Positions 1,557 to 30,063 of a stretch of DNA of 64,000 bases are shown here, piece after piece (the stretch's first letter is position 1; every line of letters begins with the position of its first letter). The DNA lies in the NCBI RefSeq assembly GCF_041146795.1, contig NC_135172.1, forward strand, positions 41,312,123 to 41,376,122, in the 5' to 3' direction. The translations under genes and the position numbers were made by a program. Origin of the DNA: Maylandia zebra. Its lineage: Eukaryota > Chordata > Actinopteri > Cichliformes > Cichlidae. The notes below the pieces were generated by a model. The model searched no databases and was not told the origin of the DNA. It saw nothing but the letters and a program-made list of their open reading frames with translations.

Positions 1557-4500
1557 TTAGACATTTTTGTACGTGTTGAGCGCATCCTTACTTGTGGGCG
1601 ATGAGACGTGAGGCAGTTGCTGCTGTGCCGGAGTTTCAGATGGATTCGGACCACCCGGAGCTGGACTGGAGGAAGTCTCCTTGATTGAATCCTGCACGAT
1701 GCTGCAAGCTGGATCTGCTGGCTGCTTCACAGGATCAGGCTCAGCTTCAGAGGTTGTGGAGCAACTATCAGGACTTTGTTTAACATCAGTTTGGACCTGG
1801 CACGAAGGAGCCAACTCTACATTAGAAACGCTTTGAAAAGGACTTTCAGCTGACGCCTGACTGCAGGGAGGCAAACTCAAAGTCTCAGAGAGGGGGTTTG
1901 CAAAAAGGCTGAGGAAGGAAGCAGCAGAGGTTTTCTCAGGTTTGACTTCAGTTTTTAAATGTCCTTCTTTGCTGGTGAAATGTGCAGGCTGTGAGGCTCT
2001 CACTGGGTCAGGTGTCGGTGTCACGCTCTCAGCGATTGGGTTTTTAAAAAGGCAACTGAAGGGGATTTTCTGAGTCTTTTTACGTCCAGCTGAACAATCG
2101 GATAGAGTTGGAGTCTCCCCGCTGCACTCCGGTGACATTTTAGCAGAACAGCGTTTCTGTGTACCGGGTTGGAAGACAGATTTGGTCTTTCTTTGGTACC
2201 GAGGGATCTCAGCAAGCTGCTTTGCTGCAAAATGGTGAACGGCAATGTTTGCAGAGTCACTCGTCTTAATGGAGCCATCTGCAGGTTCAACAGGAGCAGA
2301 AGTTCTGCTTTTAAACTCTGAGACGCCTGAAGAGGGAGAAATACCCGAGAGATGTTTAGGAGGACGGGTGTTATCTGTAGGAAGCTGTGAGCTTTCATTC
2401 ATGTCCGATTTGCTTTTGGAAGATGCAGGATTATCTTCATCTATAACAGGAGGATGCAAACGCTCCAGTTTAACTTCATGAAAAGCCATTTCAGCAGATT
2501 TCAGGGACTCTGGTATAGCTCCACATTGCTGAGTACCAGAGGAAAGAATAAGATCAGAGCTAGAAATCAGGCTGTCGTGCACTTGTAGGGAAGACAGGCT
2601 CTTGTACATTTTCTTGAAGGGTTTGTTTGGCTCATGTTTGATACTCAGTGAGACTTTTTGTACTTGATGTTGTGAACTTAAGAGAGGATCCTGGATTTCC
2701 TCAGTTTTTACACTTGAAGCAGTGAGTCTTTGACCAAGGGTGTAATTTTCCACTGATTTTAAGGACCTGAGGACAGCATCAACAGAATAGGGAACTTCCT
2801 TTTGTGTCGTGGAGCCTAAAGTGGCCTCGGTGGTGGTCTCTGCGGCAGAAGGGGTAGTAGATTCTTTGCTTTCAGGAGTATTATAGAAGCTAGGGAAAGA
2901 CCTGTACAGCTGAGGTCCAAGCATGGCTTCCACTGAATAACAAACTGGCTCCGGGCAGTTACTGCTGGTTGATGAAGGGCTGTGAGGTCGGGCGGTGTCT
3001 GCTGCACACCGAAGAACAGCTTCATCTGTAACTGTGGCCATTTCTTGTATCTGGTGTACTGAGGGTTCCCCTTCTGTAGCTGTAGCTGCATCTGCGCTGC
3101 GGTAAAAGTTAGGCCTGAAAAATAAAAATGTCCAGTGAAGGTAACGTGCATGGATTATCAGAAAAATTCCTGTTAAAGGCTAAAAGCATCGTAACAACTT
3201 AAGTTCCTCTTAGAATACAGCAGCGAGTCGTGTTCAGATTAATGTTTGCTGCTCTGTAGTCCAGAGAAATGTAATCCATCTTTTATGTACAGTCTATGCC
3301 TGCACATAAAAGCCCATCTTCTGTGTCGTCGGTCTCATATTCATGAACTAATCCTTCAATTACACTTACTGCACGTGAGGATGAGGACATGTTTAAATTC
3401 AGAGGTGCATACCTGAGCGGGTCCATGAAAACATTGGGGGTCCCCTTTGTTTCTGTCATTCCTGCCTCCTCTTTGCTCGCCGGCTGTCCCGGAGGCTCAT
3501 GCTCAGCTTTTTTTGCAAGCTCAGAGAGGTCACGTTGCCATTTTAATAACTGCAGTGAAAAGAAGCAAAGCATTTACATTTGATTTCAGCACAAAGCAAT
3601 GCATGCAAAACATTTTGAGACCATTTTCATGCCTGACTTCTCCATGCACACCTCATCCAACAGTTTTCCTGTGACGTCAGTAAGCGGCTCGTGAGAAAAC
3701 TTGCAGTCTTCTCCTTGATAGCATTTTCCTTTTCTATGGAAAAACTTGCAAGGAAAAGACTGTGCAGCTTGGTATAGGAAATACAAGACAGCCAACAACC
3801 TCCGCTTTCATTTGGTTAACGAGATGTGTTTGTGGCAGCTTACAACAGTATATCAAAGGATATTGTGCATGTACGGACAGCTCTCCCCTTTTGTGCAGAA
3901 GCCTTGGATGTAAAATTTACAGACTTCTTTGATGAGATCGTTGTAACCCTGAATATGCTCCAGCTGGCAACTCTCAGCCTGTATCCAGGAAAGGAAAGAA
4001 AGCACATTTTTCATTTTTGCAGTCTGAAAAAAGAGATTCGGGTAAAGTTAAATAACCAGCTGTGATGCAACCTGCCTTTAGGCATCGTCCGTAAAGAAAA
4101 TGTCGACAAAGTAACCGCCCGTCCACCAACAGCGCATTCTGGTCCTTGAACTCCTGAGTCATGAACCTTGGCTTCACTTGAAAGTCCTAAAAGAAAGGAG
4201 ACGAGTTAAATTTGATTCCACTGAAGGATTACTTGAATTAATGTGTCCGCTTCAATAAATATTCCAACTAACGCCGAAGGATCCGAGTATCTGTTTGTAC
4301 TGATGGCGTGACATGAAATGGCGAGCCAATCCATCATAAACTCAAGCTGCTGCAGCTCTAACCAGCTGATGGTGGATGGCGTTTGTAATTAAAGCCATCC
4401 TGGAGTCTTGCTTACCATCATGTCATTTTCATGTCCTCTTCCGCCTCTCCCACCTCTTCCAGACATCGGTCTTCCTTGTCCACGGGAAAATCTCCCTCTC

Positions 4501-6955: not shown

Positions 6956-7099
6956 CGGACTTTGTTCCTCCACATATGAGGCCGTCCCTGAGTCAGGTTT
7001 AAAGTTCAGGTCACGCAGACAGTTTCAGTATTACCTCACTGAGTGTCGCTCCCTCACTCTCTGAACTCTCTGTTCACACTGAGCTGCCTGTATCACAGG

Positions 7100-10000
7100 A
7101 TGACCCGCTGGGCTCTTCTCGCTCCCGTCCTGCTGCTCCTGCTGGGCCTGTTCATCCACAGCGCTCTCAGTCAGGAGGCCGGAGACCCAGCAAATGCACC
7201 ACCTGCACAGGGCCAAGCAGCTGACAGCACACAGGGAGAGGATGAAGATGGGGACTGGGGACTAGGGACCCTCCGCGACAGCTTTGAGGCCGTCGGCGGA
7301 TACTTTGACTCCATGCTGGAGTTCATGGGCGGACGTGACGGAGTGTGCCAATACCGCTGCAGATATGGTAGGTCTGCTAGGTGAACATGTGGTATAACAT
7401 AGTCTGGTATAAGGCCATGTGTGTTTGTATTATTGTAGGGCCTTTATAATTAAAAGCATACATAAATAAAATTATTGATAAACAGCAAAGCTAGATACCT
7501 GCACTGGAAATGGTCAGAGTTTCAAATTACGAGGTCAGTAAAGATAAAACGCTTCAGGCTGCTCTAAACATTCAGTTTCAGGCAGCTTTTTTTCTACTGC
7601 TGGCTCTGTATGATGTCATCCCTCATCTGCGGTCTGTGACGAGCAGCAAATTAAATCCCCGATCCTGAAAAAGTTTGAAAAGCTGTGTAAAGTGTACATA
7701 ACAAGAGAATGGAAGGATTTGTAAATCTCATAAACTCCTATTATATTCAGAATAGAACATTTGACGCTGAACGTTACACATTTTTAAACTGACAAAATGC
7801 AACATTTTGAGAAAAATGTTACGTTCATGTTAATTTGGTGGCAGGAACAAATCATAGAAAGGTTAGCAGTTCAGCACCTGAAGCCATGCTGCTGGAACAG
7901 CTTGTGGTTTAGTGTTGTTTTGCTGAAATATGCTTGGCCTTCCCTGAAAAAGGCATCATCCTGATGGGGGAAGCATGTGTTTCTCTATAACCTGTCGATA
8001 CCTTTCAGTATTCATGGTGCATTTCCAGATGTGCAAGCTGCCAGATCCAAAGCCACTGATGCACCTGAGCGTCAGAGATGCAGGCTTTAGGACTGAGCAC
8101 TGATGGCTGAACAAACCAGACAGTCCTGTCCTCTATAGTGTGGAGGACACGGCATCCATGTTTTCTAAAAATAATGTCACATTTTGATGAATCTGACCAC
8201 AGAAGAGTTTTTATCTTGGCCTCAGTCCATTTCAAACGTGCTCTGTCCCAAAGAAGACAGCAGATGATGTTCAGCTTTGCCCCTTCCCTCCTTATTCTCT
8301 GAATGTTTTAATGATAATCTGAGTCGTCAAGATTTTATGTTGTGTACATTACTCTGAGATTGTTTCAGACTGGCGCCCCACGTTCTTACATGTTGGAGAG
8401 TCTCTGTCTCGAGCAAGTAGACAACGGTCTTAAACGAACTCTGCCTCCTTTTTTGAAGCATTTAATATTTAAAGCTTGAACAAAGCCGCTCTTCACCTTT
8501 GAACAGCCAGCTCTTTTAATTGTAAGAATGCCCTAAAACTGAACCCTTTATGAATACGATCATGATTCCAGTAATCATCTTATGATATTTCTAATAAACA
8601 CAAATCAGCTGATTACAAATGTGCCCAGTTAGTAAGTATGTACGCACAGCTTTTGCAGATCCTCCTCTCTCACTCTGTCAGTTATCTCACCTGATAACTT
8701 CTTGATCACCTCCTTCTCTCGGCGCTAATAGGATTTATTCAGAAAGGTCTTGTACACGCTGATATTTGTCGCGGTTGTTATCTGAGCCTGGAAATGGACT
8801 GTGAACTCTGATAGGAGAGGTTTTATGTGCTGACTGGGTCAAACATCAAGTGATGTGCAACATGTCATCTATGTGCAAACATGGATCTATTTTAAATCCA
8901 CGGGGGTATCAAACAGAGCCCAGCACAGTCCTGCTGGCCTGTTGCAAAACATGACCTACATTTTAATTAATTTTAATTGATTTATTTATTAATTGCTATT
9001 TCTCCCTCAGGTAAAGCTCCTGTTCCTCGTTCGGGCTACCAGATGCCAGAACCAAATGGATGTAGCTCCTACTTCTTCGGTCTTCCTATTCCAGAAGGGG
9101 TAGGTCTCTTCTGTCTGTTTAGAGCAAATTTATTTGGAAATCATCAATACTGTTATGAAAAGCTGGATCCATCTTCACAAGGCGCTTATAGAGTTTGGGT
9201 GGAGGACAATCGAGGCCCCATAGAGAGTAATGAGCATTTGCTTCTAATCAGAAAAAGTGTAAGCCAGTTTCAAGAGCTGCTGGAGCTTCGTCTTCTTTAG
9301 ACTTCATGTGTCTCTCTGTGAATCTTGAACATTAGAAGCCTCTGCTCTGTTTCTACACATTTTATTGTTTTCAGTAACCAGGACATGATTTTAGAAACAT
9401 TGTTAGTGTGTTGCTCGTACATATCTTAGGATTGAGCTCCGCGCGGTGGGGCAGGCACCAAAACAGATGAACAAACAGCAAGAGAGCAAACCTTAAATTA
9501 AAAAGAGCACACGTTTAGGTTTCAAACTCCAGGAGCAGGTTTCTGGGTATTATTGGTAATAAAACAAAAATATGTGACTTTCCATAACTGAGCTGTGTAC
9601 AGTTAATATTTTGTCTTATCCCTGTTCTTTTACAACGCTGTGTTCATTTGTGCAGCTCGGAGGAAATCTCGTTTTGATGAAAAATTGCTTCCAGCTTGTT
9701 ATGTTACTTCAGCACAGCTGGAAACAGGAGACTTGTGATTTTTACACTTTATTGATTCTGGGAGCTAAATGTCTGCTCAGCTCTACTCAAGAAAACAACT
9801 CCTACTGTGCATCTGACAAGCAACACATGACACTCAGTTCAGCATTATTTATTTATTGGTGTCTGCTAAAGTCTACATCTTTACTGTGTCTTCTAAGTAA
9901 AGAAGTGAAGTGATGAAGTGACAGCAGTAAAGACAGGAGGAAGGCTCTGTCTGCAAAGTATTATATGCACTACATACATGCCAACACCGACTGTATATTA

Positions 10001-10804
10001 CAGCTATTAATTAGTGGAGTTTCCATGAAGGAACAGCAAAGCAGGAGGCTGTGGGAGATGCTTTTAAAATCCAGGAGAACTTGGGAAAAACAGGAGTGTA
10101 TGCAAGTAGACTGGAGGAAAAAGAGGGTGAACTCCACCTTTAATAAAGGCACTCAATCTAAAAGCATCTGAGGTGTTTACTAAAGAAATATTACTTTGTT
10201 TATGTAATAAAAAAGTACACAAAAAGTCCACACAGAGAGGCGACAGCAGAGCTGTAAAAATTCGTCCGATGAAAACCAAATAAAACCTGATCTCAGAACA
10301 AACAACAAACCTATTTCTGATGGAGCTAATAATGCTAATAATGCACTTGTACACAAACACATTGATCTTTCCTGCTGTGTGTCAGATGGACATGGGCATC
10401 CCTGCCATGACTAAGTGCTGCAATCAGCTGGATATGTGTTACGACACCTGCGGCTCCAACAAGTATCGCTGCGACTCCAAGTTCCGCTGGTGCCTCCACA
10501 GCATCTGCTCGGACCTCAAGAAGAGCCTCGGCTTCGTGTCCAAAGTGGAAAGTCAGTAATATTTTAACCTTCCTTTCATGCACCGTCATGTTCTTCTTCG
10601 TGATATTTTAATCACTGATCTCTGACTGTAATCCGAGTACATCAGCTTCCGTTGATCCTGTGCTGTCCTGTTTCTTATTTCTCAGCATGTGAGACTGTAG
10701 CAGACACCTTCTTCAACACAGTGTGGACTTTAGGCTGCAGACCGTACATGAACAGCCAGAGGGCAGCATGCTACTGCCCGGGAGAGGAGAAGGACGAACT
10801 TTAG
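7100..10804 (+). CDS. pla2g12b: group XIIB secretory phospholipase A2-like protein, catalytically inactive
   Basis: Exons 7100-7367, 9011-9099, 10386-10551 and 10686-10804 join in phase to 642 nt, 213 residues. An earlier in-frame codon exists at 7043, but starting at 7100 gives a clean signal peptide ([19 protein letters not shown]). Matches to vertebrate PLA2G12B include [35 protein letters not shown] and [19 protein letters not shown]. The active-site His of the CCxHDxCYD motif is Leu134, as in known PLA2G12B and unlike the active PLA2G12A. The protein ends KDEL, an endoplasmic-reticulum retrieval signal. Known role: lipid loading of apoB lipoproteins in liver and gut ER. Intron 1 carries a Tc1-like relic. 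No AATAAA was seen in the 500 bp after the stop. Confidence 0.95.
7670..8560 (-). mobile_element. Tc1/mariner-like transposon relic in pla2g12b intron 1
   Basis: The minus strand holds a broken transposase-like frame (8005-8235) with [19 protein letters not shown], resembling the second catalytic Asp region (SDESKF) of Tc1-type transposases. The flanks (around 7690-7800 and 8240-8560) look like the rest of the same element. Several stops and indels; not functional. Edges approximate. Confidence 0.55.
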
Positions 10805-13784: not shown

Positions 13785-16700
13785 TCAGTCTATCTCAGAG
13801 ATCAGGGAGTTTGCCGGCTGCATGACTTTGGACTGAGGCATCTGGCTCGTGTTCTTTACCTTCTGGTTAAAAGCTTCAAGCTAGAAAAATAACCAAAGAG
13901 AAAAACGATTTATGATGACACGATGATGACGGCTGTCACAACAGGAAACTCGGAGCATAAAGCAGGGAAACAATTCCAGATTATAGCAGCGATAATGTAA
14001 AACATAACGACAGACTGAGATCAGGATTATGAAACTGAGATTCAGATGAAGTAATGATACTCAGAAAAGTATATCTAATGACATGATTGACAACTGTTAC
14101 AGATGCAGGGCATCAGTCATGTCTTCAAATGTTTAAAATTCTAAAAATGGAAATGATTTTAGTGACGTGTGACAGCGTCTGCTTATGCTTAAAATACATA
14201 TTGACACATCTTAAGTGTCTCAGACTGAGTACTGGGAATTCTGCTGAAGTTGATCCTCAGACCAAAAACACACATCAAAGAAATACTTTGAGCTTCCTAC
14301 AGTTTTAGTTTTAGTAAAGAAAAAAATAAAGTAATAATCCATCCCCAGAATTAGATCTTTTTTCATTTTTTGCATAACAAAATTTAATAAAGTTGGGCTA
14401 AATTTTACCATCGTACTACTAAACGTTTCTGATTTAGAAGAATCTTAAAGTATATATGGAGCATTTTATTATGTAAAATACATTCATAAGTACAGGAGAT
14501 AAAACACATGAAATTTTTAGGGCTGATAAAGCAGACAAAGCATCCATGGTACCAATACTCTGTTCCTCTATGCCACAGATATCACATCAGTGAGAATCTG
14601 ACACATCCAAGATACTGATGCTCACACTGGGATTAAGAATTTCATGCTGATATCTCCTGCACTTAAGAAGTTATGAGGGTCAAAAATATATTTTAAAAAA
14701 AGAAAACAAATTTGAACCCCTTCTAACTGAAAATGTTTACTGGATGAAGGTAACAGCATGCATGGCTTCATTAAATATACTGAAGTAATTGTGCTCAGTG
14801 TCCTCTGAGTCACTACATTTCATTATCAACAACAACAAGCAAGGCAAATAATGGCACAACCTAACCTCTTAGCATGGCATGGCCTCAAGAGCTGGCCAAA
14901 CCGACTGAACACCAACCTTTTTCCTCAGGTTCGCCTTTATTTCCTCCTCTGTTAGCTGCGGCTTCTCCTCTTTTAACTCCTCAGTGCAGGGGTCATTACC
15001 CACAGTCTTGGTGCATACCTTTGAGTCCTGTGGTGCCAGTGGTGTCTTCAATGCATTATTGTGTTTCTCTAAAATACTTTTGGGATTCCTGAAATCTCCC
15101 ATAAGTTTTTTGCGACCCCGTCTCCAGTTGTGTCCACCTGTGAGGCTCTGAGAGGATGCCTGCTCGGTATTGATGACTCTCAGGCAGCGAGAAACAGAGG
15201 CTGACCCATCTTGGCCTTCGCTCACAGACAGGTCCGGGTTTGGAAATGAGGCACTGTTTGTAAGAAGGCTGGGATCAGGGAAAGCCATGTTAGGTGCCAC
15301 TACAGAGCCAGGAAAGTGCGGGTAAGGTTGGCTGCTGGCAGAAAGAGAGGGAGGAGTGTTGTACTGATTGTATGACCAGTAAGGATTTGTAGCACCGCTG
15401 TAGTGGCCACTCTGGCTAAGAGCAAAATGCGAGTACTGAGACAAAATGTAGTCTGGATATGGAGAAGCAGCAGGATGAGGAAACACGGGATTTTGTGAAT
15501 ATGGATAAGCAGAAAAATGTTTTGAGTCTTTTCGCTCTCTGTCCCTCAGTGTTTCTCTGCTGTTCCATCGATCTCTGTGTTTCAGTCTCTCTCTGCTTCT
15601 TTCTCGCGAGCGGCTTCGTTCGGCCTTCCGCCTCCGTTTCAAATCTCTGCTGCGAGAGCGTCGACGGCATGAGGGGCTCGGGCTAGAGCTTCTAGAGGTT
15701 GACCTGGAGGAAGATGAGGACGAGGAATTTCTGTGATCTCTAAGAGAGCGCCTCTGCTGTGTCTCGTCCTCCCCTCTGCTCTCAGTCCTCCTCCTCCCTT
15801 CACTCTTCCTCACCCTCCCTTCGCTCTTGCTCCCATGCATTCTCTCCTGACTCTGGTCTGTTTTGCTGCTCCGCAGAGGAGAGCCTGATGAGGACTTCCT
15901 GCGATCTCGGTCACGAGAGTGCTTCTGGCGGCTCTCGTGCTCCTCTTTGCTGTTCACACGTTCGTTTTTTCTCCCGCACAGCCTCTCCTGAGTGCGGTTT
16001 GCCAGTTTGCTCAGCTCGTCCACGTCCAGGTTCCATCCCAGAGTTTTAAGAATGCTCTGCAGCTGTTCATGCTGCTCACTCACCGATGAGGTTTCTTCCT
16101 CCTCCTTCTTCTTCAGTGCCACCGGAGACTTTAATCGATTACTAGAGCCCAAACTGTGGTCTCTTTTGCTCTTCTTCTTCTTCTCCTCCTCCTCACCAGG
16201 TAAGAAGAGCCTCTCTCGAGTAGATGAGTCAGTCTTTTTCTCTCTACTGTTGGTCTTGTTGAGGCCTGCCAGCAGGTTTCTACCATTTGACTCGCTGTCA
16301 CTGTCATCACCGAGCCCGGGAATTAGGGCACCACTCTTTAAATGCTGGCTCTTACTGTCCTGGTTGAGACCCTTCAGCAAGGGTCCACTTTTCAACGACT
16401 GGCTCTTGCTTGCCCAGTTGAGGTTCAGCCTAATGGGCTTAGTGTTTGAGAGTTGGTTCTCACTGGGTGATGTGGCTCCAGTATTTAACTGTTGGCTTTC
16501 ATTGGCTTGGCTGAGGCCCGTCAGCCGGACTCCACTGTCTGACCGCACACTGTCTTTGGCTTTGTTGAGTCCAGGCTGTGGAGCACCACTGCCAGTACCT
16601 TCACTGGACTGGCTGAGGCCCCTCAGCGAGGCTCCAGTATTTAATCGTTGGCTTTCCTTTGACTGGTTGAGGCCCGGTTCACCTTCATTGGCTGTACTGA

Positions 16701-19700
16701 GTAGACTCTCATTTTTCTGACTGAGATCCTTCAGTGAGGATCCACTCTTCGATCGATGGCTCTCACTTTCCCATCCGTGGCTTAGAAGAATGGGTCTAGT
16801 TTTTGAGTGCTGGTTCTCGCTAGGTAGGCTGAAGCCTGACAGTGAGGCTCCGGTATTTAACTGTTGGCTTTCACTGGCGTGGTTGAAGTCTGTCAGCAGG
16901 GCTCCACTGCCTGCCCGCTCACTGTCACTGGTTTTGCTGAGTACTGGCTGTGAGGCACCGCTGCCAATACTCTTGCTGGGATGGCTGAAGCCTTTCAACG
17001 AGGCTTCAGTCTTCGACCACTGGCTCTCACTGGCCTGGCTGAGTAACAGAATGGCTCTACTGTTTGAGCACTGGTTTTCACTGGGTGGGCTGAGACCTTG
17101 CAGTGAGGCACCACTAAACAACCGTTGGCTTTCCTTTCTCTGGGTGGGGCTCGGCTCAATGTCATTGTCCATGCTGAGTATACTTTCACTGGGCTGTCTG
17201 AGGCCCAGCAGCGAAGCTCCACTATTCAGCTGTTGCTTCTCAGTCCTAAAGGGTGGATCTGATTTGCTCTCCATGTCAGGGATCTGAATGTTCAGGGGCT
17301 CCTCACCTAAAGGAAGATCCTCTCTATCATTGCTCATAATCTTGTTAAACTTTTCGATGTCCACGCCTTTGTTGAGGATGCTGAGGAAGCGCTCAAAACC
17401 CTTGTTGACATTATTTTCATCCTTTGCTGGTGAAGAAATGCTTCGGCCGAGAGGTGGCAGTGACACACCAGGGACCTGAGAAGGAAAAAAAGAGATTACT
17501 GTGTCATTACTCAGAGAAGAGTAGAAAAGTAAAGCATTCTAATGTTGATCAAAGCTTCTTCTTATTTTATGATTCATTCATATAATACTGCATGTAAGTG
17601 GAGGTATGGTGTGGTTGAAATACAAAGAAAAAGCAGAAAAGCATCAACTGTACAACCTCGCCACAGTCATCCTCAGGTTTGAGCAAGTTGATGTCGACTC
17701 CTTTGTTGAGCACGCTGAGGAAGCACTCGAAACCCTTGTTGATGACGTCCTCTCTCTTAGCCGGTGATGTAACGCTTGGGCTGGAAAGAGGCCACGCAAC
17801 GTCAGGGCCCTGAGAAAGGTCAGAAATTCACTTTACTGTTGAACCAGCAGATTCGTGGTGAGAAGCTCAGATGCTGTCATAAAAAGTATAATTACATGCT
17901 GCCATGATCCAGGTCTCAGGTAAACACGTCTGAAATTGTTCTCAGCACTTCCAAATCATCAGCCACTCAAAAGATAATGGCCATATTTCAGCGTTTTATA
18001 GCACATTAATAATGTTAAGACAAAAGATAACATTAGCATTTACTACTTCATTGCCATGACACAACAGAAAGACTGTCAACTGCTGGATCAACAACATAAG
18101 GACTGTACAGTAACAGCAGCTGGTTATTCCTCTGTTACAGAGGCACCTTGAACGCCTTCGTCACAAACAAACACTAACACCACAAACACATTGTAATTTG
18201 GGGGAAAACACTGTTATTCACACACATCCTGGTGGCGGTCAGAGGGCCTGGTGGCGCCAGTGTCCGGCAGCCTCGCCTCTGTCAGTGCGCCCCAGGGCAG
18301 CTGTGGCTACAATGTAGCTGCCATCACCAGTGTGTGAATGGGTGAATGACTAAATGTAGCGTAAAGCGCTTTGGGGTCCTTAGGGACTAAGTAAAGCGCT
18401 ATACAAATGCAGGACATTTACATCCATCCGAAATGTTTGTTCCAATCACTTCAGCTGTGAGGGCTTTGTGTGGCACGATATTAACCCCCGATTCTTTTGT
18501 CCCCGTGATAGAACAGAGAAAACCGACTCAGTGTGTTAAAACATCTGTATTTCTTTTTATTCAATAATCTTCCGGAAGAGAGAGACCCCTGCACAGCTCA
18601 AACGCCAGCTGCAGGATCTCTAACATTAGAATCATAAACTGTGCCTCATATAGGTTTTATTTTGGTACTTTACACGTCACACAGTTTCAAACATTGCTTA
18701 TATGGAAAGTTCCTCTTTTCTGTGTCTTATCTATTAATATATCTGTGCACTAAAACTTCCTGTTTTTCAGTCTGGCTGAGCACTTTGTGAGTCAAAAGTG
18801 GCCTTGCTCTACAAGACTTCATTATTAAAGTACATAAAACAATATAATAGGAAAATAAGGATACTAACGATATTGATTTCATGACACATACCTGTTCACT
18901 GTAAGGTGGTACAACAGTGTGTCTCTTCTTCATTAGAACCTTCACTCTGAGCTTCAGAGGATGCTGTTCCTGCAGCACACCGCCTTTGCTCGGGCAGGAG
19001 GAGCTCCTTCTCTCTCTGGCCGACTGCACCTGAATAATAGAAAAAGAAAGCTTTACACATGAACGAGATTTTTGAAATTGTGACAGTGAGTCAGTACGAG
19101 TCTACAAGTGATGAGGTTTCATTTCTTTTCTTTTATATTAGGCCCTGTGTTTTTCAGCACTGAAAATCTCATGTAGATATTCCCTGTATAAAAAAAATAA
19201 GGCAAAAATCCTATGTACCCTACTTCATCTAAATCTCAAGTATTTATAATATGAAGGTCATATTTTTTGTTATCCAAATAAACAAAAACAAAAAAAAGAA
19301 CAAAAACATCTGATTCTAAGGGGATCAGGTGGGTCGTGAAAAAAAAAGAAACACACTTTACTCTGAGAGTCTATTCAGTGCTCCTCACCTTTGAGAAATA
19401 GCTGAGGTATTGTCGCTGCATCAGAATCTCCTTCACTCTGTCTCTTAGAGTTTGACCTACACACATAGCCGGAGGCTCGTCACCGGAAACACCTGGTGGT
19501 GTCTCCACAAACCGCGTTTTCGTGGCGAGTGTAGCTTTCTTGTGCATAATTCTCTCCTCCATCTCTCTGAGGAGCTGCTTGTTTCTTGCTAGCTCTACAT
19601 CCTCTTCACTGTATGGCAGCGGCTCTCCGTCCGGGTCCTCCACCTCTGGGACTTTACTATGAACATGATGAGATGAAGAACTGAGCTCTTTCCACCTCAC

Positions 19701-22592: not shown

Positions 22593-25500
22593 TTATCTAG
22601 GCTTTTTTTTGGTTTGAATAACCTGCAAACAGCGGGGCCTTGTCAGTGGTTTGGATTTTTGCGTTGTGTTCACTGGCTGAACTGCACTTACATTTGATTG
22701 GCTGAAATACGGCGGCTGTGGATGATTAACGTGATGCGGGAACATGTGGCTCGCTTGCGGGAGCATGGTTGGATACATGTTCATAGGCGGGATGCCGGGG
22801 TACGGGACGAAGGGTGGCATAATAACCCCCGGCCCAACATGGGGCATTGGTGGAGGCACAGGAGGTGGGTATGGCATCGGTGAGCAGTTGACCGGAGGGT
22901 ACGTCGGCACCACCGGAGCAGATGGAGGTTTGGATGAAGGGTATGAGGAATTAGGAGAAAATGGTTGTAATGCAGCAGCGCTCTCCTGAGATTTCCCTTC
23001 GCAGTTCTTACTGTCCTGTACTGTGCTGCTGCTCGTCTTCTGGTCATACTCAGCAGATTTGTATACTTGATGCACATCTGTTACATCCCTCTCTGCACTG
23101 TACGAGTCTTTTTTACTGTAATAATTCTGATTTAAGGGGCTAAAACTGGATCTGCTTGATGATGATGATGCTCTACTTTGACGTCTCGGGGAAATCGGTC
23201 GCCCCGTGCCCTTCTCCCTCACAACTTTACGAGCCAAATCACCATCCTTCTTCCCATACAACCGCTCCTGGATTCTATGAGACATTTGGCCAAGCTCTTC
23301 AAATCCCAAATCCATGCCAATGGCCTGCAGCACATCCTGCATTTGCCTACGCTTGTGTTCATCCTCAGGTGGCAGCGGCACCCTTTCCACCACCAAGGGG
23401 GACCTGGATCTGCTGCGGAAGTAGGCTTCCCTGCCATCATTCCCCTGAAGGGGCTTTTCATCAGAGAGTGGGCACCGTTTTGGGCTGATGGACCTTCGAT
23501 GAGTCTGCGGGGAAACTGGTCTGCGGGACCTTTCGCTTTCACTCCAGTAGCTGTTATCCTGGTGGCTTCCTTGATTCCTCCCAGCATTGTGAGTTGGAGA
23601 CCACAGATGATCAGCAGGGCTCGGTAATAAGGTTTGAGAAACGGGTTGATCGTCGTCATCCGAGGTCTGAGTCACAATCTTAGTGAGAACGTCGACATTC
23701 ACGCCCTTGTTTAGCACGTCGAGGAAACGCTGGAAGCCTTTGGTTGACTTCTGCTCAGAAACAGCTGCACTTCGACTGGGTGCATCACTCTCAAAAGACT
23801 GATGGGAAGCACACAAACGTCACAGGTATAAGAGTCAAACAAATCTCTGGAAAGTTAAACATTTTCACACAATTTTCTGAGACACTTCTGAAAGCAAATC
23901 AAACACGAAACAGCAGTGTACGTGACATCTGAGAGCGGATTTGTAAAGCTACTGCAGAATAATGAGCAAGTGAAATACAATTACAGCCTATTACACCTTG
24001 TTTTCTTCTTGTAGCCGTTTATTGTGTTAATCAATATTCTGTCTGCTTTGAGGCCAGTTTTGATGTGCATCCCGTTTTGTTGTCACACTCATATTGATAA
24101 ACCGTTAGAGTGGTCATTTCATTTATGTCAGGTTACAGGTGAACAGGGCTATGGGATCAGAGCCCAGATATACTGATATTCATGGTGGTGTTTTTACTGT
24201 GTGTTTTGTGCTGCATGTGTTGTAGATGTTGTAAATGCAGACAAAATTAAAATGTTAAAAGCGTTTGGCTCGGTAGACTTCTATTTCTGCATCATGTCAG
24301 AAATTTCACAAGTTCATAAAGAATAAGAAATACACGTGTGCTGAAGTGAAGTGCCAAGCTATTACTAATAAATAGGCCTATCAACTCGAGTTACACTTCT
24401 GAGAAGGTGCCAATCTACAGCAAGGTGGCTACAGCATGAGTGTAACGTTTCATGCAGTAGAAGTATTCAAGAAATATTCAAGAAGTATTTGGGATAATGC
24501 AAGAATACAATAAACACTCTCTGCAATTAGCCAAACTGCAGGCTGAGGAGCACCGGTCCTCCTCCTCCTCCCTCAGATACATGCAGGAGTGAATGCAGTG
24601 TGGTAAATACACTCAGCATTTACCACACTGCAGTAATAAAACCTGTCTTATTATGCATGTATTAATTATTATTGTTGTTGTTATTCGGCTACCCAGCAGC
24701 GTATGATGTAATGAATATTTGCTTCTTTTATTACAAATCAGTAAAACCACACAAGGGGCCAGTAAAGCTCTGATCTGGTGGCCAGAGACAAGTGGAATTA
24801 CAAGGCATAATGTCTGAAGTGATAAAGATTTATCAACATGTGTAACGTCAAACCCACCTGTCGGTTCGAACCATTCAATGGATATCTTGTTCCAGCTTGG
24901 CGATAATCCTCATCATATACAGACGTGAGAGGACTGTCCGTCCTCTCTCTGGGATTGACATAACTCTGTTTGACATGGATAAATATTTTTAATCAAACCA
25001 CAAAATGATTACTTGGAATTAAAACACTATTCAAACTGATGCAAACACACAATTGAAACCTGTCCAACCCTCATTAAGCAATCATGTAAACTTACCCTCT
25101 CCTGTGATCGTGCCCTCTCTTGTGATGGATCCCGGCCCCTCTCATATTCATCTCCATCTTTGTAAGACCCTGACAGTCGTCTGTATGTTAACTCATTTAG
25201 CTGCCTGTATGGGAACTCCTCATGCAGAGGCCTGTGCCTGGAGTCCTGAGGTGTTTTCCTGTACTTGAAATCCTCATTTTGTGGTGACGCATCTTCAACA
25301 TTCCTGGTTAGATGCGACCGTGAAAAACTGTCCGGTGAAGGCCTGTACGTTTTCTCCTGAGCCTCACGCCTGTACCTGTAATCCCGCTCGTCGTCATCTG
25401 CAAACCTCTGCTTTTTGTTGTCAGAGGGGTCCCGCACTGGTGAAGACATGCGTCTCCTCGCCGGGCTCTTCCTGCTCCGGTCCCTGTTCAGTGTATCTTT

Positions 25501-27727: not shown

Positions 27728-28427
27728 CGAGGCTTTCATTATTATATCTGGAGACTTTAACCATGCCACACTGGATTCTACTCTGGCTGCTTTTCACCAG
27801 TTTGTGAATTGTCCCACAAGGAGCAACAGGACAATTGACCTACTGTATGCTAATGTGAGAGATGCATACAGAGCCACCCCCCTCCCCCCACTAGGGAAGT
27901 CAGACCACAACCTGGTTTACCTACAGCCACAATACACACCCCTCGTCCAAAGGCAGCCTGTCACAACGCGCTCCATCCGGAGATGGACCCCAGAAAAGGA
28001 GGATGCTCTGAGAGACTGCTATGACACCACAGACTGGGATGTGCTCCTGAGCCCACATGGTGAGGACATAGAGGGGGTGACACACTGTCTTACAGACTAC
28101 CTCAACTTTTGTGTGGACACGGTCGCCCCTGCTAAGACGGTACGGTGTTATCCTAATAACAAACCGTGGGTAACACAGGAAGTCAAAGCTGTCCTCAACA
28201 TGAAGAAGAAGGCTTTCAGGAGCAAAGTGAAGGAGGAGATGAAAGCAGCACAGCAGGAGGTGAAACGCTGCCTGAGGGAAGCAAAGGACACCTACAGGAG
28301 GAAGGTGGAGCAGAAGTTGGAGAGGAACAATATGAGGGAGGTCTGGAATGGTGTGAAAACCATCACAGGCCACAACACCAAGAAAAGCACAGTGGGGGGA
28401 GACTGTGGAGAAGGCAAACGAACTTAA
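27728..28427 (+). pseudogene. LINE endonuclease C-terminal part and linker
   Basis: Open frame with the endonuclease motifs GDFN and SDHN, then a basic helical linker (VKEEMKAAQQEVKRCLREAK). It ends at a stop at 28425-28427, where the reading continues one base over in the reverse-transcriptase frame. The single-base offset near 28390-28410 looks like one extra base in or after a G run. Confidence 0.8.
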
Positions 28428-30063
28428 CAACTTCTTCAACAGGTTTGACCAGCCCACAACCCCCCCACCCTCACCCTCACCTTCACTACAGAGTCCTCTC
28501 CCCACTCTCCTGCCTCCCTCGCTTCCCCCCCTTCCTGACACCATGACACCCCCCTCCTCCAATCCCTCTCTCAGCAGCAAGACATCTCCCCCCCTCCCCT
28601 CCTCCCAAACATCTCCCAGTGTCACAGTGGATCAGGTCAGGAGGCAACTGAGGAAGCTTCGCCCCAGAAAGGCAGCAGGCCCAGACAAGGTGTGTCCTAG
28701 GATGCTAAAGGCGTGTGCTGCTGAACTTGGGGAGCCGCTACAACGAGTCTTCAACCTCAGTCTGCGACTGGGGAGAGTGCCCGCCCTATGGAAGACATCC
28801 TGCATCGTCCCGGTCCCCAAAAAGAACCGGCCCAATGAGCTGAATGACTTCCGACCGGTGGCACTGACGTCACATCTTATGAAGACTCTAGAGCGGCTCT
28901 TCCTCAACTTCCTCCGACCACAGGTACAACATGCCCAGGACCCACTACAGTTTGCATACAAGGCGGGTGTCAGAGTGGAGGATGCCATCCTGTACCTCCT
29001 ACACAGAGCCCACTCACACCTGGATGGGGGAAAAGGCACGGTCAGGATACTGTTTCTTGACTTTTCCAGTGCCTTTAATACCATCCGGCCCTGTATGCTT
29101 CAGGAAAAACTGAACAGGATGGAGGTGGACCCCTGCCTGGTGGCTTGGATCTCCGACTACCTCACCGACAGACCACAGTACGTCAGGCTGAAGGACATCA
29201 CGTCTGACACAGTGGTCAGCAGCACAGGAGCACCACAGGGAACTGTGCTGTCCCCTCTTCTCTTCACCCTGTACACCTCTGACTTCTGCTACAACTCTGA
29301 ATTATGCCATATTCAGAAGTTTGCAGATGACACGGCCATCATGGGGTGTATCTGGGATGATCAGGAAGAGGAGTACAGAAGTCTGGTGAGGAACTTTGTC
29401 GCATGGAGTCACACAAACCACCTGCAACTCAACACCTCAAAGACTAAGGAACTGGTTGTGGACTTCGGGAGGTCCAGAGAAGGTCCACTGCCAGTTCAGA
29501 TAGAGGGGGAGGAGGTGGAGGTGGTCAACAAGTACAAGTACCTCGGGCTGTGGGTGGACAATAAACTGGACTGGTCATGCAACACAGAGCACCTGTATAA
29601 AAAAGCCCAAAGCCGACTGTACTTCCTCAGGAGGCTGAGGTCTTTTAACATCTGCAGGAAGCTCCTGAGGATGTTTTACCAGTCGGTGGTTGCTGGAGTA
29701 CTTTTCTATGCTGTGGTGTGCTGGGGGAGCAGCACAGCAAAGAGGGACTCATCCAGGCTGGAGAAACTGATCAGGAAGGCTAGCTCTGTGGTCGGCATGA
29801 AGCTGGACACTCTGGTGACAGTGGCAGAGAAAAGGACATTAAAGAAACTGATGGACATTATGAACAATGCTGGGCATCCTCTGCACACGGCCATAAACAA
29901 CCAGAAGAGTCTGTTCAGTGACAGGTTGCTTCTCCCCAAGACAAGAACTAACAGACTGAAAAACTCCTTTGTCCCACACGCCATCAGACTGTTTAACTCC
30001 TCTCTGGAGGGGAGAGGGAGGGGAGACAGGAGGACAAAGGAGGGGGGAACAACTAAGCTGTAG
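28384..30063 (+). pseudogene. LINE reverse transcriptase
   Basis: About 558 codons without a stop. Conserved blocks in order: PDKVCPRMLK, SCIVPVPKK, FRPVALTSHLMKTLERL, LFLDFSSAFNTI, STGAPQGTVLSPLLFTLY, KFADDTAI (the metal-binding FADD at about 29320) and YKYLGLWVDNKLDW. The C-terminus carries HAIRLFNSS. The catalytic residues are intact, so the insertion is fairly young. It lacks its own start because the original polyprotein frame is shifted upstream. Confidence 0.85.

Follow-up and report, generated by a model that had tools for sequence, protein, structure and literature searches.

The question raised by this locus is whether an AT-AC interruption between two zinc fingers of a zc3h8-like gene of Maylandia zebra is an intron of the minor (U12-type) class and, if so, whether its place in a gene with a suggested influence on the minor spliceosome reflects regulation or inheritance. 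The gene lies on the minus strand of a 64,000-nucleotide (nt) stretch of contig NC_135172.1 (positions 41,312,123 to 41,376,122), the whole of which is here called the window and is numbered from its first letter. The letters, frame and length of the segment at 3762..3863 (minus strand; the fifth intron of the coding region, 102 nt long and in phase 1), taken together with same-site AT-AC introns in two paralogues, indicate that it is almost certainly a genuine minor-class AT-AC intron of the zc3h8 gene, one that presumably stood here already in the ancestor shared by ZC3H4, ZC3H6 and ZC3H8. An earlier appraisal of this DNA from its letters (the sequence-only reading) had proposed a U12-type AT-AC intron here; that proposal is borne out, and is strengthened by the two paralogues with minor-class signals at the same site.

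The coordinates and letters of that proposal are exact, in that the minus strand from 3863 begins with ATATCCTTT, runs for 102 nt, carries TTCCTATAC at 3780-3772 and reaches AC at 3763-3762. The minor-class 5' splice site, recognized by its letters and its U11 pairing, occupies intron positions +1 to +9 (3855..3863, minus); the branch-site element, recognized by its letters and by U12 pairing with the A at 3775 bulged, occupies 3772..3780 (minus); and the 3' terminal AC lies at 3762..3763 (minus), both paralogues likewise ending in AC at the same codon position. A branch-like element near the AC had been correctly seen, at a stated distance of 11 nt. The element ends 10 nt from the intron end, and its two candidate branch adenosines, 3775 and 3773, are 13 nt and 11 nt away from the final base of the intron. 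Pyrimidines make up 12 of the 18 bases before the 3' splice site, the lowest count among the seven introns of the gene, although the difference from the others (13-16) is small.

The reading frame places a strong demand on this interval. Retention of intron 5 yields MHNIL followed by an in-frame TGA (3853..3855, minus), three codons into the intron, and joining 3864 to 3761 in silico yields an open frame of 823 amino acids in which finger 2 runs into finger 3 as MHK-SFPC. We enumerated frame-keeping, stop-free pairs with donors at 3918-3779, acceptors as far as 3713 and introns of at least 50 nt. The end types listed comprised 3 GT-AG, 9 GC-AG, 4 AT-AC, 15 AT-AG and 20 AT-AA pairs, with no GT-AC. 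None of the 12 listed in-frame GT-AG or GC-AG pairs keeps both CCCH fingers, and exact finger spacing results from two listed pairs, AT-AC 3863-3762 and AT-AG 3861-3760, the latter giving MHN, not MHK. Removal of the AT-AC intron does restore the conserved spacing, as had been claimed, but the assertion that it alone does so was too strong, because the AT-AG pair yields exact finger spacing too.

Comparison with related genes in the same genome carries much of the argument. A protein search of 962 Mb in 63 contigs, with 16 candidates scored, gave 11 matches: three to the window gene, two on contig C13, two on contig C14, and a weaker group of four (two on C17 and one each on C4 and C5) that was left out of the family, the best C17 locus being the one among them that was inspected. 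The C13 and C14 pairs each represent adjoining finger 2 and finger 3 exons. The C13 paralogue (C13:22252584-22252906) has an AT-AC intron of 95 nt that starts with ATATCCTTC (8/9 to RTATCCTTT) and carries the branch site TTCCTTAAC (9/9), ending 12 nt before the intron end; that of C14 (C14:35412450-35413139) has an AT-AC intron of 513 nt that starts with ATATCCTTT (9/9) and carries CTCCTTGAC (8/9), its end lying 11 nt from that of the intron. Both introns end in AC and occupy the same phase-1 codon site as the window intron, and in all three genes retention leads to a stop within a few codons. They differ from the 102-nt window intron in length, in their stronger branch sites and in their middle portions, which lack similarity beyond that of shuffles. 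Flanking introns, compared by eye, are also common in position and phase across the three genes. Given same-site phase-1 AT-AC introns in both paralogues, the intron is most simply older than the duplications that made the three genes, so that the simplest reading would be a single ancestral AT-AC intron retained in each.

The identity of the host gene was approached through its fingers. Within the PDB, the top match of the 130-residue finger region is KIAA1064 (2cqe, E 3.5e-25, 92 bits), gapless over query residues 54 to 117 and across the splice junction (MHKSFPC versus MHGDFPC); spliced fingers of the C13 gene (E 2.6e-24, 88.6 bits) and the C14 gene (E 3.5e-36, 126 bits) likewise give best matches that are gapless across the junction. 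Pfam and the gapless 2cqe alignment thus show the window gene to have CCCH fingers of the ZC3H4/6/8 type, with their fixed finger 2 to finger 3 spacing. KIAA1064 we take to be ZC3H4, and since the C14 fingers match it best, C14 is the zc3h4-like member. The C13 gene, compared here with the KIAA1064 structure sequence only, is presumably zc3h6. The window gene is likely zc3h8, by elimination as the third copy; its protein N-terminus (an MDF..LF start) presumably resembles that of human ZC3H8.

The genome also encodes minor small nuclear RNAs (snRNAs), with at least one match over cut-off for each of U12 (C4:11734576-11734729, 127.9 bits), U11 (C21:27031277-27031409, 122.3 bits) and U6atac (C5:23313441-23313568, 133 bits). 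Within the window itself, an Rfam scan found no family at gathering score. The element TTCCTATAC pairs with 8/8 bases of the U12 segment GUAAGGAA, which is found in the genome's own U12 gene, provided that the bulge falls on the A at 3775, one position ahead of that in the consensus.

Bare motif counts were rejected as evidence. In the window, compared with shuffles of it, ATATCCTTT occurs once against 0.59 expected, RTATCCTTT twice against 1.01 and TTCCTWWAC three times against 2.71, all within the shuffle range, and genome-wide ATATCCTTT (9481 occurrences) hardly exceeds a backward control pattern (9275). A second minor-class 5' site, GTATCCTTT, lies at 53222-53214 (minus), with one branch site of at least 8/9 within 3 kb (GTCCTTAAT, 1597 nt on). 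Separately, ATATCCTTT recurs every 1063 bases at 38 listed places at the start of contig C1 (C1:58-39397), a recurrence that suggests a 1063-bp tandem satellite at the contig end. Position is a different matter from abundance: the chance of an exact ATATCCTTT within the ten frame-demanded donor positions is about 8e-5 (about 0.003 with one mismatch allowed). For a branch element with a TTCCT core close to an AC or AG in frame, the corresponding chance is about 0.013, and for any 7/9 match about 0.08, so the branch evidence is weak on its own. That the introns of the two paralogues start with ATATCCTTC and ATATCCTTT in an identical codon phase lifts the case for a putative minor-class intron well above chance.

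Several observations weigh against this interpretation. The element TTCCTATAC agrees with the branch consensus TTCCTTRAY at only 7/9 positions, and its U12 pairing is equalled by 3% of random 19-mers from the window, so that the pairing is a fit and not a proof. Pairing of the 5' site with the 5' end of the genome's own U11 is modest, at -5.3 kcal/mol (C13 -4.0, C14 -6.8) against -3.5 for a scrambled control. The best local match between the window intron and each paralogue intron falls at coordinate 0, on the 5' splice site, but the alignment scores are ordinary by comparison with shuffles (69/200 as good for C13, 29/200 for C14), and any weight they have comes from that position; the best match between the C13 and C14 introns lies elsewhere, with 150/200 shuffles as good. 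Among the three introns compared, the middles were no more similar than shuffles. Lastly, no orthologue was confirmed by tblastn among the pattern matches (2 in viral contigs and 11 in genome contigs).

The sequence, the frame, the position and signals shared by three genes, and the U11, U12 and U6atac genes are directly seen; that splicing takes the following course in cells we infer from them. Recognition of ATATCCTTT would pass from U11 to U6atac; the pairing partner of TTCCTATAC would be U12, with one bulged A serving as the branch point; and the joining of exons at 3864/3761 would bring fingers 2 and 3 back into one unit. A retained intron would presumably lead to decay of the mRNA. By common descent, the same arrangement may have been present in the ancestor of ZC3H4, ZC3H6 and ZC3H8 and kept in all three.

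What such an arrangement might accomplish is a separate issue. A broad proposal is that the three ZC3H4/6/8 genes are gated by their same-site AT-AC introns, minor-spliceosome capacity (together with the A-type helper CENATAC) jointly setting the dose of RNA polymerase II factors for short and non-coding transcripts, and that selection rather than inertia has preserved this shared control across gene duplication; we regard this as an unlikely account. The sequence-only reading had raised a narrower idea of feedback, whereby low minor-spliceosome activity would reduce ZC3H8 and so alter the output of the minor snRNAs themselves. There is some basis for it, in that retention brings an immediate stop and ZC3H8 belongs, as a subunit, to the little elongation complex, of which another component, ICE1, lowers occupancy at U11 and U12 promoters when knocked down, as described in part of PMC6057032. 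The same portion of that article, citing Hu et al. at second hand, reports that loss of ZC3H8 is without effect on snRNA expression, and it relays the finding of Egloff et al. that ZC3H8 is a key component of the complex with 7SK while questioning its precise role; its function within the complex is stated to be unknown in a passage of PMC5493778. Moreover, two paralogous genes carry the same intron, so that its presence calls for no explanation specific to snRNA, and a dependence of this sort on minor snRNAs is common to every needed gene that has a minor intron. The reported constancy of snRNA expression and the sharing of the intron with two paralogues leave the feedback proposal unsupported, and we consider it very unlikely.

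Known regulation of the minor spliceosome through its own signals takes another form. The USSE element of the U11-48K/65K loop holds repeats of the 5' site, and the zc3h8 intron resembles it in placing minor-class 5' site letters in a gene for which an influence on the minor spliceosome has been suggested. In the loop of U11-48K and U11/U12-65K, as outlined in part of PMC5473595, the 5' sites are unspliced and activate an upstream major 3' site, giving a poison isoform or one with a long 3' untranslated region. Unlike those sites, that of zc3h8 stands at a frame-demanded intron start; it is the single ATATCCTTT of the gene, with no second copy seen there, and elsewhere in the window RTATCCTTT recurs just once, at 53 kb, which also speaks against a feedback device. 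With two sister genes holding the same kind of intron at the same place, the intron looks like an inherited one rather than a special control switch.

The boundaries of the intron could in principle be drawn otherwise. An AT-AG cut, again of 102 nt and displaced two bases further on (3861-3760), keeps the open reading frame and the exact finger spacing, and restores at the junction the N found in the C13 protein (MHN). Its donor, ATCCTTTGA, is out of register with the minor-class consensus, and the residue in question is variable (K, N and G across the three genes, and G in KIAA1064). The equivalent cut would end in AT in C13 and in GT in C14, and this is therefore unlikely to be the ancestral site; altogether the AT-AG cut appears highly improbable. 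Handling of the AT-AC intron by the major spliceosome is scarcely credible, for while major-class AT-AC introns do exist (85 of them or of related subtypes in data given in part of PMC8280824), they constitute 0.02% of zebrafish major introns (PMC7367187), and there is a full minor-class 5' site here, with paralogue branch sites at 9/9 and 8/9.

A U12-type AT-AC intron at this site is typical of a class that is rare but well known. The rarity ascribed to it by the sequence-only reading holds among introns at large but not within the minor class, where AT-AC ends account for 22% of zebrafish and 26% of human minor introns, as against 0.02% of zebrafish major introns (Table 2 of PMC7367187). According to the respective articles, at least 90% of minor introns are conserved between human and other vertebrates (PMC2831892), many sit in paralogous families (PMC10639083), and 612 zebrafish genes, RNA processing genes included, have U12-type introns (PMC9501576). 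Phase 1 of the window intron agrees with the minor-intron phase bias described in part of PMC10639083. In PMC8280824, A-type minor introns are CENATAC-dependent, 92% being affected upon its depletion, and have a lower splicing efficiency. With the AT-AC A-type introns of this dependent class the window intron has in common the ATATCCTTT donor, a U12-complementary branch 10 nt from the end, an AC terminus, phase 1 and the same site in paralogues; the sole difference seen is its 7/9 branch element, with the bulged A one place early.

Searches of article text found no statement that ZC3H8, ZC3H4 or ZC3H6 have minor introns; such introns could well appear in intron databases and in supplementary tables, which lay outside these searches. 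The string 'zc3h' is absent from the main text of PMC9501576 (on zebrafish Zrsr2), PMC8280824, PMC7367187, PMC10639083 and PMC2831892, and the available portions of PMC7137325, PMC6057032 and PMC5493778 make no minor-intron statement on the three genes. The present analysis contributes three AT-AC minor introns in paralogous genes, and their common site suggests that they arose before ZC3H4, ZC3H6 and ZC3H8 separated. It predicts that a failure of minor splicing or of CENATAC would affect all three genes at once, and it illustrates that a striking coincidence of intron class and gene function need not mean feedback.

As predicted from sequence only, an eight-exon coding region extends on the minus strand of the window from 5563 to 1557 (exons 5563-5481, 5403-5337, 4706-4416, 4186-4076, 3978-3864, 3761-3652, 3549-3413 and 3114-1557) and encodes 823 amino acids with no stop; window letters were identical to the genome record across the 3129 bases compared. 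Pfam matches on this protein are to CCCH fingers, the top one being a KIAA1064-like finger model (zf-CCCH_9, residues 225-261). Exon 5 (3864..3978, minus) encodes the last part of finger 1 together with finger 2 (C204 to H222, codons 3921-3865; Pfam CCCH match at residues 204-222), and exon 6 (3652..3761, minus), in which the zf-CCCH_9 match falls, encodes finger 3 (C227 to H246, codons 3750-3691). Five of the seven introns are GT-AG, intron 5 is AT-AC and intron 4 (3979..4075, minus, phase 0) is GC-AG, with the donor AAG|GCAGGT. The GC donor is probably a derived change, given GT-AG at the same position in both the C13 and C14 paralogues. Exon 5, of 115 nt, is flanked on both sides by non-GT-AG introns. 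The last exon (1557-3114, minus) encodes about 519 residues, and the best stretches of the protein's Pfam hits fall in the finger region. Mammalian ZC3H8 is far shorter than the 823-residue window protein, which therefore has a long extra C-terminus.

The window holds other features as well. Exons of a group XII phospholipase A2 gene (PLA2G12) lie beside zc3h8 on the plus strand, at 7043-7384 and 10284-10559. Two long open frames on the minus strand, of 889 (14869-17538) and 408 (22593-23819) amino acids, have in common a short stretch noticed by eye (QERL-C/Y-G-R/K-K) and RS-rich parts; neither has a Pfam match at E 0.001, and they are perhaps related nuclear protein genes. Further on, at 28357-30063 (plus), a 568-amino-acid open frame that contains a reverse transcriptase domain (RVT_1, E 5.1e-28) as well as a match to ALKBH8_N is probably part of an element of the long interspersed nuclear element (LINE) type.
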